Shown here one piece after another: positions 12,896-20,677 of a stretch of 64,000 nucleotides of DNA; within the stretch, counting starts at the first letter, position 1, and each line of letters begins with the position of its first letter. The position numbers were made by a program, and so were the translations under genes. Where the stretch lies: NCBI RefSeq assembly GCF_014596745.1, contig NZ_JABTCF010000003.1, forward strand, positions 124,001 through 188,000, in the 5' to 3' direction. The notes beneath the pieces are model-generated. The model had not been told where the DNA came from. It made no database searches and was given only the letters and a program-made list of their open reading frames with translations. Source of the stretch: Maribacter aquimaris (GTDB taxonomy: Bacteria; Bacteroidota; Bacteroidia; Flavobacteriales; Flavobacteriaceae).

Positions 12896-13270
12896 ATGAA
12901 GAAAAGACAGACAAAATCGAAAAGGGCAGTATTGGAGTGCCTAAAAAGGGCCGAAAACTTTGGTTTAAGATCTGATGAAATCGAAAATCAGTTGCCAGAG
13001 TTTGACCGGGTAACCATTTATAGAATCCTACAAAGCTTTATAGACGATGGCATTATTCATAAAGTGATTTCCGATGACGGTAAGTTCTATTACTTTAAAT
13101 GTCATACTTGTGGGGAAATACACTATCATAACCACTATCATTTTAAATGCGACAACTGTGGTAAAGTCGAATGTATGAACAATGAAATTGAAGTGAAGGT
13201 CCCTTCAGGCTATAAGGTAAGTAATGTCAATTTTTGGATAACAGGTGTTTGTAGGGACTGTAATTCATAA
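12896..13270 (+). CDS. Fur-family regulator, Zur-like
   Basis: 124 residues. A winged helix lies in the N-terminal half (AVLECLKRAENFGLRSDEI, FDRVTIYRILQSFIDDGII). The C-terminal half is unusually rich in Cys/His: CHTC near residue 67, a HYHNHYHF cluster, CDNC near 83, and CRDC at the end. Paired CxxC motifs hold the structural zinc in Fur proteins; the extra CHTC/His region could be a regulatory metal site. With the divergent receptor it suggests zinc regulation. The gene symbol zur is not assigned because metal specificity is inferred. Confidence 0.8.
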   Translation: MKKRQTKSKRAVLECLKRAENFGLRSDEIENQLPEFDRVTIYRILQSFIDDGIIHKVISDDGKFYYFKCHTCGEIHYHNHYHFKCDNCGKVECMNNEIEVKVPSGYKVSNVNFWITGVCRDCNS

Positions 13271-13454
13271 TCCCTAAAGTAACCGCATTGATTTTATAGC
13301 CAAAACTTCCTTTGCCCTACCTAGTACACATAAACATTCACCTATCATTTATGTAAGAATAACGGATACAAATATTGGGAACCGTTGAATGCCTTAGCCA
13401 TAAAGGCTAATTGAAAAATAAATTTAGACTTTCGTATCGCACAAAAATTTATCG

Positions 13455-13462
13455 TACATTTG
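13455..13462 (+). promoter_or_regulatory. Minus-7 promoter box of the perR-like gene
   Basis: TACATTTG fits TAnnTTTG. It is 45 bases before the ATG at 13507 and puts the transcription start near 13469, downstream of the longer open-frame start at 13411. It therefore decides that the later ATG is used. Confidence 0.55.
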
Positions 13463-13474
13463 AATTAGTTTTAT

Positions 13475-13491
13475 ATAGGAATGATTCCTAT
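13475..13491. promoter_or_regulatory. Perfect 7-1-7 type palindrome, probable PerR box
   Basis: ATAGGAAT-G-ATTCCTAT is a perfect inverted repeat. Its core TAGGAAT-N-ATTCCTA has the 7-1-7 layout and the AATNATT centre of Fur/PerR boxes. It lies just after the predicted transcription start and 16 bases before the ATG, so autorepression, also covering the peroxiredoxin behind it, is likely. Confidence 0.6.
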
Positions 13492-13506
13492 TTAGAGTCA
13501 AGTCAT

Positions 13507-13944
13507 ATGATAAATACAATAGACCTTCGAGATAAACTATCAGCTAAAGGATTAAGGGTGACCCCGCAAAGAATGCGGGTATTGGAAGCTATATACAAAC
13601 TTAACAATCACCCTACAGCCGAAAACATTATTTCGTACATACGAAAAAGTGATCCAAATGTTGGTTCTGGAACGGTTTATAACGTTTTAGAGACATTGGT
13701 TGAAAAAAACTTGATTAAAAAAGTAAAAACTGAAAAGGATGCGATGAGATATGACGGTGTACTTGAAAATCACCATCATTTATATTGTATTGAATGTGAT
13801 TATATCGAAGATTTTGTAAGCGAAAAACTTGATGGTCTTTTAAAGGTTTTTTTTGAAGAAAATCAAATTGACAATTTTATCATAGACAATATTAAACTGA
13901 ATATCAGTGGTAATTTTATCATACATAAAAATCAAAATCATTAA
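13507..13944 (+). CDS. perR: Fur-family regulator, PerR-like
   Basis: 145 residues from the ATG at 13507. DNA-binding helix GSGTVYNVLETLVEKNLI, then the sensor side MRYDGVLENHHHLYCIECDYIEDF with the His cluster and one CxxC. The second C-terminal CxxC found in Bacillus PerR is absent, so only half of the usual structural zinc site is present. The gene is followed after 17 bases by a peroxiredoxin, the classic PerR target. Peroxide sensing through the His/Asp iron site is inferred from the family. Confidence 0.8.
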   Translation: MINTIDLRDKLSAKGLRVTPQRMRVLEAIYKLNNHPTAENIISYIRKSDPNVGSGTVYNVLETLVEKNLIKKVKTEKDAMRYDGVLENHHHLYCIECDYIEDFVSEKLDGLLKVFFEENQIDNFIIDNIKLNISGNFIIHKNQNH

Positions 13945-13961
13945 TTAAAATACCAAAAAAT

Positions 13962-14660
13962 ATGGGATGTGCAAGTGGTGTAAAACCAAGAAAGAAAATT
14001 GCAGAAACAGATAATACGAGTATAAATCATAAAGAAGAAAAAATAATGGGTTCAACAATGGTGAGGCAGCAAATGCCCGAATTTACAATGGATGCCTACG
14101 ACGCTAAAACAGGGCATTACAAAACAGTATCAAGTGAAGACTATAAAGGGAAATGGTCGGTAGTATGTTTCTATCCCGCTGATTTTACCTTTGTTTGCCC
14201 AACAGAAATCGCGGCAATGAACGCTCACTATGATGAGTTCCAGGAATTAGGGGTAGAAATATTGGCAGTATCCGTAGACTCCCAATTTTCACATAAGAGA
14301 TTTGTCGAAACAGAACCTATTTTAAAAGGTTTGAAACTTACTATGGGAGCTGATGCCAATCAAGAAGTTAGTCGTGCTTTTGGTGTATTGATTGAAGAAG
14401 AAGGTGTGGCTCTAAGAGGCCGTTTTTTGTTTAATGCAGATGGTATTTGTGTAGCTCAAGAAGTTCAGGCCGATTCTGTAGGAAGAAACGTCAACGAATT
14501 TTTAAGACAAGTACAAGCATGGCAGCATGCAAGTAAAACCGGTGAAGTTTGTCCTGCAGGATGGAGACCTGGTAAAAAGACACTTCCTGTAAATACCGAT
14601 GTGGAGCAAATGACAGGTAAAGTAGGAGACTATATCACATTGGAGGAAATATTGAGCTAA
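13962..14660 (+). CDS. Peroxiredoxin, AhpC/Prx1 type
   Basis: 232 residues if translation starts at 13962, about 204 if at the in-frame ATG 14046. The typical 2-Cys pattern is present: peroxidatic Cys in DFTFVCPTE and resolving Cys in GEVCPAGW near the C-terminus. It reduces H2O2 and organic peroxides in the cytoplasm. The extra 28-residue N-terminus (MGCASGVKPRKK, polar, charged) is not part of the Prx fold and its use is unclear; a run AAAAATA before the inner ATG gives no ribosome-site evidence. It shares the PerR-like operon and a terminator follows. Confidence 0.9.
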   Translation: MGCASGVKPRKKIAETDNTSINHKEEKIMGSTMVRQQMPEFTMDAYDAKTGHYKTVSSEDYKGKWSVVCFYPADFTFVCPTEIAAMNAHYDEFQELGVEILAVSVDSQFSHKRFVETEPILKGLKLTMGADANQEVSRAFGVLIEEEGVALRGRFLFNADGICVAQEVQADSVGRNVNEFLRQVQAWQHASKTGEVCPAGWRPGKKTLPVNTDVEQMTGKVGDYITLEEILS

Positions 14661-15060: not shown

Positions 15061-16353
15061 CTATTTAACAAGTTTGCTGTTTAGATAAATATTTGTTTCC
15101 ATCTCGGTTTCTTGAACGCTTCCTTCCCCAGCAAAACAACAACGAAGCGCTTGCACTGCAAACTGATTCGCTAAATTTTCATCAGCATCGCTTTTTACGA
15201 GGATTCGGGTTACTACATCGGTCATCTCTCCCGTCATTGCCGGAGTCATAAAATTAGTTTCTCGGTAATTGAACTGGTGCTCAACAGCAAAATCATCAAT
15301 CTTAACACCTTTTTTCTCGAAATACATCATATTCGGGGTCAATTGGCTCATCAAACAAAATGATGTTCCTAAAGTAAAATATTCTCTTGATGTAGGAGCT
15401 GTGTCTATGCCTTCATAACCTCGGCTATCATCTGAGAAAAGCTCCCAAGTTTCGTAGTGTGCAGTTAACGATTTTGCTCTTAATCTATGTAAATATGGGC
15501 GCTTTGCATCGTGAGCAGATTCTGCGATACCAACTTCAGAAAAGCGCATTTCTTTTGGGAAATCATTCATATCCATATCAAGATCTTCCGTTACTTTTAT
15601 TGTTTGCAATTGTAACGCTGGAGTTGTATTCGTAATCGTACGACCATTATCAATAGAAACTGGAGAAGGAACTTGTCCTGCTTGGGCTGCTTTCCCATCC
15701 CAATCGTCACCATTAATAACATTTTCTGCATCAATAGCGGTTTTGTTAGCCAAGGATTCACCAATCGACCAGGCTCTAATAGACATTTCCTTTAATTCTT
15801 TGATTTTTTCAGCTGGCTCGTTACTTTTCACAACAATATTGGTCACTACCTTATCGGTATAACCCGACCAGTTATCAGTCATAATATCGCTCCATCTGAA
15901 AAAGAATTCTGTTTCCACTTTTACATCTTCAACGTCCAAGCCCATTATCTGTATACTTCTTTCAACTTGGGTTAGTAAGTCTGAAGCTGCTCCAGCCGTA
16001 AAATATGTCAATGGGTTTGGTGCACTTTGGGGATTACCACCTTCATCGCTTGTCATTTGCCATGCGCTTAAATCAGCTTCACCAACAGTTTTCACCACCC
16101 CTTTTTTCAAGAAAGGCTTTTCTTTATTCAAAACTCTTTTTGCCGATGTCACAACATTCTCGCTAATAGCACCATTTACGGGTGTTGCTTTTGTTGGATA
16201 AAATGTTGTAGGCTGGTTAAAATTATCCACCCTTTTTACAACTGAATACTCTTTTGGAACCTGCTCCGTATTGTCTTGGGAATAAGTTATTCCGTTACAA
16301 GTTAAAAGAACAGTTAGCAATAGAATGGATTTTACATTTTTACTTGTTTTCAT
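15061..16353 (-). CDS. Exported protein with two tandem OsmC-like domains
   Basis: About 430 residues from the ATG at 16353; the frame is open from 16428, but only this start puts a signal peptide at the N-terminus (MKTSKNVKSILLLTVLLTC). Two OsmC-like domains follow, about 75-220 and 275-430. Both have the OsmC run (SAPNPLTYFTAGAASDLLTQVE; APTSREYFTLGTSFCLMSQL). Domain 1 lacks both redox cysteines, domain 2 has them (FCLMSQL and LRCCFAGEG). Normal OsmC/Ohr are single-domain cytoplasmic dimers, so this resembles a dimer in one chain sent to the periplasm. It is a paralogue of the C-terminal two thirds of the gene upstream. Confidence 0.75.
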   Translation of the reverse strand: MKTSKNVKSILLLTVLLTCNGITYSQDNTEQVPKEYSVVKRVDNFNQPTTFYPTKATPVNGAISENVVTSAKRVLNKEKPFLKKGVVKTVGEADLSAWQMTSDEGGNPQSAPNPLTYFTAGAASDLLTQVERSIQIMGLDVEDVKVETEFFFRWSDIMTDNWSGYTDKVVTNIVVKSNEPAEKIKELKEMSIRAWSIGESLANKTAIDAENVINGDDWDGKAAQAGQVPSPVSIDNGRTITNTTPALQLQTIKVTEDLDMDMNDFPKEMRFSEVGIAESAHDAKRPYLHRLRAKSLTAHYETWELFSDDSRGYEGIDTAPTSREYFTLGTSFCLMSQLTPNMMYFEKKGVKIDDFAVEHQFNYRETNFMTPAMTGEMTDVVTRILVKSDADENLANQFAVQALRCCFAGEGSVQETEMETNIYLNSKLVK

Positions 16354-16488
16354 TTTTATCTTTTTTAAATTAATATGTTTATGTTTTACCTCTTTAAATA
16401 TCACACTACGAAGATGCAATGAAACCAAACCAAAGGAAAGGTCAATAAAGGAGGACTAATGGTAAATGTATAACCTGATATTAATTTT

Positions 16489-16534
16489 AAAAAAAGAATC
16501 TCGTTCCAAGTACTTGGAACGAGATTCTTTTTTT
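16489..16534. terminator. Perfect 46-base inverted repeat, bidirectional terminator
   Basis: Two perfectly complementary 23-base arms meet at a GTAC centre (16510-16513) with no unpaired loop. Seven As on one side and seven Ts on the other make it a strong terminator in both directions. It ends the AhpD-OsmC fusion gene (stop at 16578) and insulates the second OsmC gene. Confidence 0.8.
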
Positions 16535-16577
16535 AATCCTTTTTTAGTATAATAAATTCTTATTCAGCAGTATTACA

Positions 16578-18476
16578 CTATTGAATAAGTTTTCCATTTT
16601 GATAGACACCAACTTCTGTTGGGGTTTCCATTGAGACAGCATCTCCGGCGAAACATGTACCAAGTGCATGCTTGGCATAATCGCTCATTACTTTCTCACT
16701 GGTGTTACTCTTTATTAGTATTCTTGTAATAACACCATCTACATGACCTGTTGCCGATGGAGTCATAAAATTATCTACTTGATAATTGAATTGGTGTTCC
16801 ACACGATAGTCATCGATATCAATACCTTGATGTTTGTATAGCTCAGACCATCCGGTTAATTGACTCATTAAGCACAAACTAGTACCAGCTGTAAAATAAT
16901 CGCTTGAAGTTGGAGCTTTATCTATACCTTCATATCCACGACTATCATCCGCATAAATATCCCAAGCTGCATAATTTTCCTGAATTGCCCTAATTTTGAT
17001 TTTATGCAAATATGGACGTTGCACATCATTGGCCGATTCAGAAATACCAACTACTTCAAATATAAAAGGATTCGTAAATTTCTCCATACTAACATCTGTT
17101 CCCAGCTTAAAACTTTGTGGTTTTGGGTTGTTTCCCTTCGAAGTGATTTTCAAATTATTATCATACGAATCATCTCCTATAACTTTACCCGAACTTGCAG
17201 ATTCTGTATCCCATATTTTAGTGTTATACTCAAATTTAGCATCTACAGGAGTAGGATTTATAATACATTCACCCACAGCCCAAGCCTGAACCGCCATTCT
17301 TTTCATCTCTGCAATTTTTTCTGCCGGCTCATCACTTATAATAAGAATATTGGCAACAACGCTATCGGTATATCCTTTCCAACTAGGTGTCATAGGATCA
17401 TCATATCTAAAAAACACTTTCGCTTCTACTTTTGCACTAGAAACATCTAAATCCAAAACATTTATAGCCTGCTCCACACTTGATAACAAACTGGAAGAGA
17501 TACCACCTACCATATAACTCAACGGATTTGGGGCCGATTGTTCGTATGTATGGCCACCTTCGTCACATAAAAATTCCCATGTACTAAAGTCTTTTTCCCC
17601 AACTGGTTGAACATTTACTTTTTTTAGCATGATTGTTTCGTTATTTAATACTCTATTTGAGGATGTTATCACATTCTCATTGTATGCCCCATTGACTTCT
17701 TTTGCCTTTGTTGGCTGAAAACCAGTAGGTCTAGGACTTAGGTCTGATCGAGAGATTATGTGATAATTAATTCCTTCACCTTTATCAACATCTTGAGCGT
17801 ACGTTGTTCCTCCACAAATTAATAGCGCAGTTAGCATGGTAATAACATTCACATTTTTTTTATTTTTCAACTTATCTGAATATATAATCTCTGTTTTATT
17901 TTTTGTTATTTTTTCAAACCCAACTTGAATTATTGCTACAGGAAGCAGAATAAGAATTCCTAAAGCAATACCAAACTCATTACTTAGTTTGCTACCTTTC
18001 ATCTTTTTCCCTTTTACCCTACTTAGAAGCGCATCTAGCGAAATACCGTGAATGTTAGCAGCCATAATAACCCTGATGGTGGCTAAAATATCTGTTGCTT
18101 TCTGTTCTCCATAATGCCCTACAAAATGGTCATAAGTTTCCTTATCAGGTTTACCATTAGTATCAGCATAATGTTGTGCAAACATTAACGCAAGGGATTC
18201 ATCGTTACTAATATCTCCTAATTCCCCGTTTAGCATCAAATTTATTTCTTCCTCTGAAGCTCCTGCATCAATTGCACTTTTGGTATGGACATAATTACAA
18301 TACCTACAGCCATTTACCTGTGTTACGGCTAACATTATTTTCTCGCTGAAAGCCTTATTGATATTTCCATTTTTTCTAGACTTTCGTAAATCAGAAAAAC
18401 TTGCAACCATTATTTTTAAATGGTTATAAAAATTTGATGTCGTAAATAGTTTAGCTTTTAATTCTTTAGATTCCAT
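16578..18476 (-). CDS. AhpD-like domain fused to membrane segment and tandem OsmC-like domains
   Basis: 632 residues in one uninterrupted frame. Residues 1-150 are an AhpD/carboxymuconolactone-decarboxylase domain with the redox pair CRYC (57-60) and His64. A TM helix lies at about 168-187, a lysine-rich linker, then a second hydrophobic segment at 209-227 ending TTYAQ that is like the signal peptide of the neighbour. OsmC-like domain 1 (about 255-410) lacks the first redox Cys; domain 2 (about 480-632) has C535 and C608. It looks like a fusion of an AhpD gene with an exported double-OsmC gene that kept its signal. Topology of the OsmC part is unclear. A thiol-disulfide relay from AhpD to OsmC is an inference. 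Confidence 0.75.
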   Translation of the reverse strand: MESKELKAKLFTTSNFYNHLKIMVASFSDLRKSRKNGNINKAFSEKIMLAVTQVNGCRYCNYVHTKSAIDAGASEEEINLMLNGELGDISNDESLALMFAQHYADTNGKPDKETYDHFVGHYGEQKATDILATIRVIMAANIHGISLDALLSRVKGKKMKGSKLSNEFGIALGILILLPVAIIQVGFEKITKNKTEIIYSDKLKNKKNVNVITMLTALLICGGTTYAQDVDKGEGINYHIISRSDLSPRPTGFQPTKAKEVNGAYNENVITSSNRVLNNETIMLKKVNVQPVGEKDFSTWEFLCDEGGHTYEQSAPNPLSYMVGGISSSLLSSVEQAINVLDLDVSSAKVEAKVFFRYDDPMTPSWKGYTDSVVANILIISDEPAEKIAEMKRMAVQAWAVGECIINPTPVDAKFEYNTKIWDTESASSGKVIGDDSYDNNLKITSKGNNPKPQSFKLGTDVSMEKFTNPFIFEVVGISESANDVQRPYLHKIKIRAIQENYAAWDIYADDSRGYEGIDKAPTSSDYFTAGTSLCLMSQLTGWSELYKHQGIDIDDYRVEHQFNYQVDNFMTPSATGHVDGVITRILIKSNTSEKVMSDYAKHALGTCFAGDAVSMETPTEVGVYQNGKLIQ

Positions 18477-18523: not shown

Positions 18524-19168
18524 TCATTTAGTACCTACTACTGGCGCTTTTTTTATCCACTCATTATTGTTTATTTCAGCTAGCATAAACTCGGATAATT
18601 GATTTAAATCAACAGACATTCCCATAAATTTAGTTTCATCAGCAACAAACCTACCATCTACTTTTTCTTTAATCATAGGCGGACGAATATTTGTCCAATC
18701 CAAATTACTCTGTCCAAGCATTTGAAGTTCTCTATCTTTAGTACTGATGATTGATTTAGATTTGGACTTTATCATAACACGCAAAAGTTTGCGGGTTAGT
18801 GGTAAATTTTCGTTAGGAATTTTCACTCCTGCCCCTGAAATACTTATGAAACGAGTCTGTTTATTTTCTTGCATTTGTTTGATAATGTAGGCCAAGGAAT
18901 TAATATAATTCTCTTCATCATCATTTGATAACTTACCATTTATGGGAGGTCCAATAGTTGAAAGTATAACCTCGGAACCTTCCAAGGCTTTTTGCAGTTT
19001 ATTTGAATCGAAATAATTTCCCTCAATGACTTCAACCACATGGGCAAAGTCCTGTAGTTTTTCCTTATTTCGGACTAATACTTTAACCTTAATTCTATTT
19101 TCAACAGCTTTTTGTAGCAGTTTTTTACCTACCAAACCAGTTGCTCCTAAAATTGTTATTTGTTTCAT
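18524..19168 (-). CDS. NAD(P)-binding Rossmann protein, NmrA/SDR-like
   Basis: About 214 residues from the ATG at 19168, which places MKQITILGATGLVGKKL (the GxTGxxG dinucleotide motif) at the very start; the frame is open to 19222 but the extra part is not protein-like. The rest has the ISISGAGV and NWTNIRPP motifs of atypical SDRs. It is a putative NAD(P)-dependent reductase or epimerase with unknown substrate. It lies downstream of the AraC regulator gene, on the same strand, upstream of the AhpD-OsmC fusion gene (47 bases). Confidence 0.8.
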   Translation of the reverse strand: MKQITILGATGLVGKKLLQKAVENRIKVKVLVRNKEKLQDFAHVVEVIEGNYFDSNKLQKALEGSEVILSTIGPPINGKLSNDDEENYINSLAYIIKQMQENKQTRFISISGAGVKIPNENLPLTRKLLRVMIKSKSKSIISTKDRELQMLGQSNLDWTNIRPPMIKEKVDGRFVADETKFMGMSVDLNQLSEFMLAEINNNEWIKKAPVVGTK

Positions 19169-19261
19169 TATTACTATACCTAAGATATAACTCTGCAAAG
19201 ATGCGGTGAACACAAAACACAATAAAGGTTAATAAAAGAGAAGTAATGGTAAATAAATAAC

Positions 19262-20131
19262 TTAAGCTAAAGTTTTTCGGAATTCAACAGGTGTTAATTT
19301 AATATGTTTTTTAAAATACTTAAGGAAATTGGTTGGTTCATCAAAACCTAAAACAAAGGCAATTTCTTTTACGGATAACGAAGTAGAAACTAACAATCTT
19401 TTCGCCTCAAGAATTACATAATTATCAATAAATGACTTTGCTGTGGTATTTACAACTCCCTTACACACCTCATTTAAATGTTTATAGGAAATTGATATAT
19501 CTGAAGCATACACCTTGGCATCTCTAGTTTTTGAGTAGTTTTCCTCTACCAAGAGTTTAAATTGATTAAAGTAATCTAAATATTTATTGTTTGTTGAAAT
19601 TGTTGCTAGGTGTACATTCTCTTCACTTAGTTTAAGAAGGTAAACAGCTAATAAGGCTCCTATAATATTTGGAAGTGAAGATGAGCTACTTTTTAACTCC
19701 TCTTTTAACTTATTAGATAAAAATTGATTGTAATAGGGATTATGAATTTTTTCCTGCACTAAAAAATAATTATACAAATGGTTAATCTGGGCAATGGTAG
19801 ATTGAGCCATATATTTCTGCATAAAGGCTTCTGAAAAAACCACCAAATATCCTCTATACTCCGAAGCTTCGTCAAAGGCGTGTATCTGCCCTTTTGCAAT
19901 TACCATTACATCTCCCTTTTTAAGGGAATGAACTTTAAAATCGACAATATGATTTACTTCACCCTTCTCAATAATCAGAATGGCCTGAAAATTTAATCGA
20001 TGTGGTAAATATGGACTATGATCTGTAGGTTTTAAATCATCAGTTATTAACTCTTCCAATTTAAAAAATTGAAATCCTTTAATTTGTAACACTTTGTTTT
20101 CCCAAAAGCTTATTTCCGGAATATTTTTCAA
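19262..20131 (-). CDS. AraC-family transcriptional regulator
   Basis: 289 residues. The N-terminal half is cupin-like (HSPYLPHRLNFQAILIIEKGEV, KKGDVMVIAKGQIHAF). The C-terminal half has two helix-turn-helix motifs: ISYKHLNEVCKGVV and LSVKEIAFVLGFDEPTNFLKYFKKHIKLTPVEFR. It ends 94 bases before the reductase gene (19168) and probably controls it and the OsmC genes, perhaps in response to a small ligand or thiol-reactive compound. No operator was identified. Confidence 0.85.
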   Translation of the reverse strand: MKNIPEISFWENKVLQIKGFQFFKLEELITDDLKPTDHSPYLPHRLNFQAILIIEKGEVNHIVDFKVHSLKKGDVMVIAKGQIHAFDEASEYRGYLVVFSEAFMQKYMAQSTIAQINHLYNYFLVQEKIHNPYYNQFLSNKLKEELKSSSSSLPNIIGALLAVYLLKLSEENVHLATISTNNKYLDYFNQFKLLVEENYSKTRDAKVYASDISISYKHLNEVCKGVVNTTAKSFIDNYVILEAKRLLVSTSLSVKEIAFVLGFDEPTNFLKYFKKHIKLTPVEFRKTLA

Positions 20132-20191
20132 TGAGTAATTTTTATCCTATTTATAATTTATAAACCTGTAATCTTATATTTTCCCTGATTT

Positions 20192-20209
20192 CTTCACAAT
20201 ATTGTGAAG
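20192..20209. promoter_or_regulatory. 18-base perfect palindrome
   Basis: CTTCACAAT-ATTGTGAAG with no spacer, between the AraC gene and the broken AraC gene. It could be a regulator site for either, or a relic; AraC proteins mostly bind direct repeats, so its user is not known. Confidence 0.3.
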
Positions 20210-20213
20210 GACA

Positions 20214-20677
20214 TTACCCGGTTTCACGTTTAAAAAATCGACTAAAATATGAAGTGTCTTCAAAATTAAGTGTGTACCCAATTTCCGCCGTTGTTAATTC
20301 TGTATTTGCTAATCTTCTTTTGGCTTAAAAAAATCAGTTCTTGACGAATGATCTGACCAAGGGAATACCCTGTGATCCCTTTTTAATTTCCAAAAATGTA
20401 TTTGTCCCTTTGACAGAAAATAGAAAGCAGGCCTTTGTATTTCATAAGATTCATAATCTATAATATGTTGTTCCTCACCATCCTCTAAAAAAATGATTTC
20501 AAAATAATCATGCCCATGTGGCATTTCTGCCTGTGCCCTTCTACTCATCAGGTCGAATTGAGTCATTACAAAAGGGAAATTCGGATTAATTGAAAGAGCA
20601 GGGTGACCGTCCTTACTATTTACATATTTATACGTTTCCGAATAATGATAAAAGGGTATGTCCGCTTTATTACGCAA
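20214..20677 (-). pseudogene. Broken AraC-family regulator gene
   Basis: From the ATG at 20677 a cupin-like sensor half is intact for about 110 residues (AEMPHGHDYFEIIFLEDGEEQHIIDYE, FYFLSKGQIHFWKL). The frame then ends at a TAG near 20309. In another frame, 20214 to about 20325, the end of an AraC DNA-binding domain is seen: AKRRLANTELTTAEIGYTL and FEDTSYFSRFFKRETG, stopping at TAA without the usual last segment. The middle is missing, so it underwent an internal deletion plus frameshift. Confidence 0.7.

Follow-up and report, generated by a model that had tools for sequence, protein, structure and literature searches.

A rare AhpD–double-OsmC gene fusion with a predicted internal signal peptide in Bacteroidota

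In the 64,000-nucleotide stretch of Maribacter aquimaris DNA that we analyzed (the window), a single open reading frame joins an AhpD domain with a hydrophobic tail to a protein containing two OsmC domains, and the frame is a real fusion of a tailed AhpD gene with its OsmC1 neighbor. The fusion looks rare, occurring in three bacteria from two Bacteroidota families, and purifying selection acts at both of its ends. Judged from the seam between the two halves, the product would be a precursor cut into two parts, with AhpD at the cytoplasmic face and OsmC exported, serving a joint response to peroxides or halo-aromatics; we hold this reading tentatively, at close to an even chance.

The fused frame and its domains

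The fused gene and its neighbors on the same strand comprise the following features:

16578..18476 (−): fused gene AhpD-tail::OsmC1, 632 codons
18015..18476 (−): AhpD/CMD domain, residues 1–154 (CMD, TIGR00778; helices of the model extend to 154)
18297..18308 (−): CRYC motif, residues 57–60, then His64
17916..17972 (−): hydrophobic AhpD tail segment, residues 169–187, one helix in the models
17871..17912 (−): linker, residues 189–202, 23–42% identity between the three fusions
17868..17870 (−): TTG codon 203, where unfused OsmC1 has its ATG start
17796..17870 (−): putative internal signal peptide, residues 203–227, predicted cut after Ala227 (alignment, by eye)
17226..17684 (−): OsmC domain 1, residues 265–417, with C304 and C404 and without the canonical Cys
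16581..17066 (−): OsmC domain 2, residues 471–632, with Cys535 and Cys608
15061..16353 (−): OsmC2, a paralogue outside the fusion that has a signal peptide too (Pfam/NCBIfam)
18524..19222 (−): NAD(P)H-binding NmrA-like gene (profile match)
19262..20131 (−): AraC-type regulator (profile match)

The fused gene starts with ATG, encodes 632 amino acids and is free of internal stops. An earlier note on this DNA had described one 632-codon frame with an AhpD part carrying CRYC and His64, a hydrophobic segment, a Lys-rich linker, a signal-like segment and two OsmC domains; the frame and the Pfam and NCBIfam profiles confirm the arrangement, with CRYC at residues 57–60 and the histidine at 64. The N-terminal part belongs to the AhpD/CMD family by profile scores above the curated cut-offs (CMD 38.1 bits, cut-off 23; TIGR00778 ahpD_dom 38.9, cut-off 27.8) and by a CxxC followed by His (C57, C60, H64), whereas membership of the remainder in the OsmC family comes from PF02566 (41.4 bits, cut-off 27.5) and NF041052 OsmC_like_Se (119, cut-off 95), each matching in two stretches. 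Known AhpDs are lipoyl/NADH-fed CxxC disulfide reductases, and both CRYC cysteines are kept in all eight AhpD rows of our alignment A2, from which L076 (frame broken in three), L084 and the partial L089 and L091 were left out. The note had also called the OsmC part a paralogue of the next gene, which agrees with its 48% identity to OsmC2.

Two hydrophobic segments, 169–187 and 209–227, enclose a Lys-rich stretch. The AlphaFold2 model of the fused protein has a mean pLDDT of 88 and a pTM of 0.65, with residues 199–233 below 50, and in Foldseek (E ≤ 0.001) the full model gave two matches, 7xw1 (AhpD) and 3cje (OsmC-like). We considered a re-entrant hairpin for the AhpD tail and do not claim it, as the helix break of the full model is missing from the AhpD-only model. 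A second tailed AhpD, 39% identical, is found in the same genome on another contig (L003 1438–2112), and similar ones in L034 and L098 indicate that AhpDs with such tails form a broader type.

The two OsmC domains are homologs (HHalign E 1.9e-23) that differ in their cysteines. Cys535 and Cys608, the canonical pair of domain 2, are present in 29 of 29 OsmC rows, and a domain-to-domain alignment places no Cys at the canonical positions of domain 1; the Cys pair typical of Ohr/OsmC is thus found in domain 2 only, and the Cys pair that the earlier note had implied for the OsmC part is present there and lacking in domain 1 at the matching positions. An extra pair, C304 and C404, occurs in all five aligned OsmC1 rows and in none of the 24 others, and was also seen by eye in an interrupted sixth OsmC1 copy; being shared by unfused OsmC1, it is not a trait of the fusion. 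E. coli OsmC failed to align with either domain profile, and in a plain register, read by eye, Ser or Arg stands at the place of Glu. The classical OsmC catalytic Glu is not evident, which makes peroxidase activity uncertain.

Both OsmC parts match the OsmC_like_Se family above its cut-off, and 3cje, a relative of that family, is the sole PDB sequence match of the double OsmC. Unlike OsmC_like_Se proteins, the fusion has tandem domains, a leader and an AhpD in front, and no Sec was seen. The OsmC of C. glutamicum is not known to combine two domains and a leader.

Relatives, descent and constraint

Scanning genome contigs with a three-row double-OsmC alignment identified 24 loci. In two of these the same fusion is present as a single frame, which counts 650 codons between stops in Ancylomarina sp. 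16SWW S1-10-2 (L068) and 642 in Lutibacter oricola (L086). The earlier note had asked for other AhpD–OsmC fusions and named a sequencing error, or separate genes in all relatives, as grounds for dismissing this one. With the fused frame present in two other named assemblies, a sequencing error or a chance join in this genome alone is disfavored, and the genes are not separate in all relatives. Elsewhere they are split. In Maribacter polysiphoniae (L069), AhpD and OsmC1 are separate neighbors 304 bp apart, and the window's TTG at 17868–17870 aligns with the ATG of its separate OsmC gene; Labilibaculum filiforme (L070) has AhpD and then a separate OsmC1. In Lutibacter citreus (L071) there is an OsmC1, and a search of that genome for AhpD at E ≤ 1e-15 gave no match. 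The order is OsmC and then AhpD in a Sulfurovum MAG (L080), and OsmC2 and then a separate AhpD in a genome of the Labilibaculum family (G851). Ancylomarina has two tandem OsmC2 copies (L068 9641–10909 and 11167–12435).

Wider searches point to the same rarity. At E ≤ 1e-60, the OsmC1 query matched 1 of 397 sampled genomes of the family and 1 of 395 of the class, in both cases only its own genome; M. polysiphoniae and the two Lutibacter species, which carry OsmC1, are missing among the family matches and so evidently lie outside the sample drawn. The whole-fusion query matched 2 of 12 genomes of the genus at 1e-10 and, at 1e-40, 3 of 56 genomes of the Labilibaculum family and 2 of 38 of the genus Lutibacter. 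Across 392 genomes of the phylum, NF041052 matched 342 at E ≤ 0.001 with one above the cut-off, a search that is uninformative because single OsmC domains match too. Among plasmids, four records matched, in the AhpD-like part only. The retrieved portions of PMC2398784, PMC8945050, PMC10460364 and PMC13188914 describe no AhpD–OsmC fusion, which falls short of showing that none exists in print or databases.

The six OsmC1 sequences form one clade (support 100/100), and in a tree of these six rows a single change divides the fused from the unfused; either one fusion or one fission event would be enough for the pattern. We computed two trees with outgroups, one of 22 rows (15 of the 24 loci, the window and L111) and one of 13. 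The interrupted OsmC1 of M. polysiphoniae was included in the trees and left out of A2. With outgroups, the unfused OsmC1 trio received support of 99/98 (22 rows) and 91/94 (13 rows), and the window paired with Ancylomarina (88/87 and 95/96). Three independent fusions are unneeded given the single change in the six-row tree, but with outgroups the AU test does not settle the monophyly of the three fused rows (P = 0.117). In the AhpD tree, the split L. filiforme gene groups with the fused ones (80/89), perhaps through recombination. The unfused OsmC1 of M. polysiphoniae (L033 4582–5868) is interrupted by one in-frame TGA, copies elsewhere being intact; selenocysteine at this TGA is disfavored, as the site is not a catalytic Cys.

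Comparison of the three fusions gave pairwise dN/dS of 0.08–0.21 for AhpD, for the tail and for each OsmC domain. The linker differs, with dN of 0.55–0.80 against 0.05–0.17 in these parts and dN/dS of 0.85 and 2.11 (few sites) and 0.21 (dS saturated), rough values from 12–14 codons. Even so, and despite an identity of 23–42%, the frame continues unbroken through the linker in each of the three. Given its own base composition, the chance of an open in-frame linker is about 0.07–0.10 for each, again a rough figure for 12–14 codons, and dS of the flanking domains between the fusions is about 0.5–1.6.

Gene neighborhood and the dehalogenase island

Among the 25 loci (the 24 and the window, some of them short), an AraC cluster was found in 14, DUF4405 in seven and an NmrA-like gene in four; the last stands upstream of AhpD or the fusion also in Ancylomarina, L. 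filiforme, L. oricola and L111. In the window, a further regulator, AraC1 (20163–20677, −), is a remnant: its first 100 residues remain, and a C-terminal piece follows that is shifted in frame and contains stops. AraC1 of M. polysiphoniae has 310 amino acids. At 16487–16536, between the fusion and OsmC2, lies a perfect inverted repeat (25+25 nt) that includes runs of A and T and resembles a two-way terminator, so that the fusion and OsmC2 may be separate transcripts. On the far side of OsmC2 lie two Fur-family regulators and an AhpC-type peroxiredoxin (12896–14660, +).

The M. polysiphoniae cluster adjoins a reductive dehalogenase (TIGR02486, 254.8 bits, cut-off 160.35). A TAT-type enzyme of this kind is located at L033 7524–8981 in that species, and others stand beside the OsmC cluster in L. 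oricola, L081 and L111. Small membrane and FMN-binding-like genes adjoin it there in marine Bacteroidota. We used the M. polysiphoniae protein as a query against 16 genomes (E ≤ 1e-10) and found matches in seven: six full length (84–100% identity, the query's own genome included) and one partial at 33%. All six full-length cases are from Bacteroidota, with the gene less than 6 kb from OsmC or AhpD. In three of the nine Bacteroidota searched, namely the window genome and those of L082 and L083, no reductive dehalogenase was found. With no dehalogenase found and AraC1 broken, the island in the window may be a reduced form, one where constraint on the fusion persists.

Fate of the fused product

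The seam retains the marks of an old OsmC start: an in-frame ATG in Ancylomarina and L. oricola and TTG in the window. By eye, a leader plan follows, with a Lys-rich start, a hydrophobic core and small residues at −3/−1, the features of a signal peptidase I substrate, in all three fusions; the predicted cut sites are TYA|Q in the window, SYA|Q in Ancylomarina and SFA|Q in L. oricola. Again by eye, a similar leader is visible in most A2 OsmC rows that reach that far, a third OsmC paralogue has an N-terminal hydrophobic anchor, and no export signal is apparent at the N-terminus of AhpD. A lipoprotein signal at Cys221 is disfavored, as Ile precedes it and this Cys is present in 2 of 29 OsmC rows. 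The kept start position, the signal peptide with its Ala|Gln site and the same leader in unfused relatives favor separation by signal peptidase.

One translation would then yield a two-part AhpD/OsmC precursor. The hydrophobic tail would keep AhpD at the cytoplasmic face, the internal signal peptide would direct the OsmC half through the membrane, and signal peptidase I would most likely cut after Ala227, giving two proteins in a fixed ratio. The AhpD half may act as a CxxC disulfide reductase, and OsmC domain 2 may be a thiol enzyme that uses its Cys pair. We infer a role against peroxides or halogenated aromatics, and both halves would take part in a single response, controlled by AraC, to organic peroxides or to electrophilic halogenated aromatics. 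There is a precedent in the Bradyrhizobium cytochrome b/c1 precursor (fbcH), where the product of one gene is divided into two proteins at an internal signal sequence; the separation is alike, but its products are respiratory complex subunits and those here are thiol enzymes.

A functional link between the two enzyme types has been published. According to the retrieved text of PMC10460364, the AhpD-like CgAhp of C. glutamicum reduces OsmC with Lpd, SucB and NADH, and this OsmC has the highest efficiency among four peroxidases with cumene hydroperoxide; an AhpD–OsmC link also appears in the retrieved part of PMC8945050. The Lpd/SucB/CgAhp–OsmC system resembles the fusion in coupling an AhpD-type CxxC reductase, as donor, to OsmC as acceptor, but CgAhp and OsmC are described there as separate, cytoplasmic proteins, and CgAhp has CPGC where the fusion has CRYC (PMC10460364, retrieved text). 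By analogy, the Corynebacterium couple supports AhpD as a potential donor to OsmC within one compartment. Were the halves in different compartments, AhpD could not reduce OsmC directly and the published couple could not be carried over unchanged.

Alternatively, the protein could stay uncut, with a cytoplasmic AhpD, the signal peptide as an anchor and a periplasmic OsmC, reducing power passing outward via a partner or thiol carrier; this corresponds to the relay that the earlier note had proposed. The open linker frame in three fusions, the extra Cys pair C304/C404 of the OsmC1 clade and the known AhpD–OsmC couple (PMC10460364, retrieved text) speak for this arrangement, but the Ala|Gln site is kept in the three fusions and in unfused relatives, there is no known carrier-free route from a cytoplasmic CxxC to a periplasmic Cys, and C304/C404 are shared by unfused OsmC1; we regard it as unlikely. 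The same doubt attaches to its corollary, that the uncut AhpD–OsmC would be a two-faced inner-membrane thiol enzyme, in which a cytoplasmic CxxC reductase bound covalently to a periplasmic OsmC module with the extra Cys pair would send reducing equivalents outward and destroy peroxides or halogenated aromatics while these are still outside the cell. Somewhat less probable again is that the internal signal does not work, or that the tail crosses the membrane, leaving OsmC in the cytoplasm to be reduced directly by AhpD as in Corynebacterium. This would suit the cytoplasmic location of the C. glutamicum coupling (PMC10460364, retrieved text), and OsmC would come to lie inside again if the tail and the signal segment each crossed the membrane, but the features of the signal peptide are kept and not decayed. 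By the positive-inside rule, Lys-rich segments are disfavored on the outer face of the membrane. With AhpD inside and the tail spanning, the Lys-rich linker would lie outside and OsmC be turned back in, contrary to this rule.

Two readings give the fusion, or its AhpD half, a different standing. We see a small chance of neutral read-through, in which the AhpD stop was lost, OsmC synthesis still begins at the OsmC start and the fused product is without function. The old start position kept as ATG or TTG, the barely conserved linker residues, the broken upstream AraC1 and the failure to find a reductive dehalogenase in the window genome are consistent with it, but the linker is open and in frame in three of three fusions at that flanking dS, and a ribosome starting at AhpD necessarily makes the fusion. 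Slightly smaller still is the chance of a Bmp8-like, thiol-based reductive debrominase in the AhpD half, with the cluster serving to dehalogenate algal aromatics. Bmp8 (6ohi, 6ohj) has the AhpD fold and is a tetrabromopyrrole debrominase by its PDB titles, with a CxxC-type thiol mechanism; we know of no tail helix or OsmC in it. A profile match (6ohi, E 3.7e-4), Foldseek matches and the TIGR02486 reductive dehalogenase that lies less than 6 kb from the cluster in six genomes point that way, but Bmp8 is not the closest relative of the AhpD half, since ordinary AhpD-like proteins precede it both in the profile search (Bmp8 6th of 11) and in Foldseek (11th to 13th), and no such dehalogenase was found in the window genome.

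What had been proposed as a possible undescribed redox system is made of parts and chemistry already known, and the joining of them is new. The novelty lies in the fusion and the putative compartment split, since AhpD-to-OsmC electron transfer is already published for Corynebacterium (PMC10460364, retrieved text). A type of reductase fused to a type of enzyme reducible by it hints at joint work in Bacteroidota too, and it exposes a puzzle, as the reductase has no visible export signal and its partner has one. Double-OsmC proteins are now tied to marine reductive dehalogenase clusters, and the fate of the product would decide between a two-protein precursor that signal peptidase divides and a thiol relay spanning the membrane.
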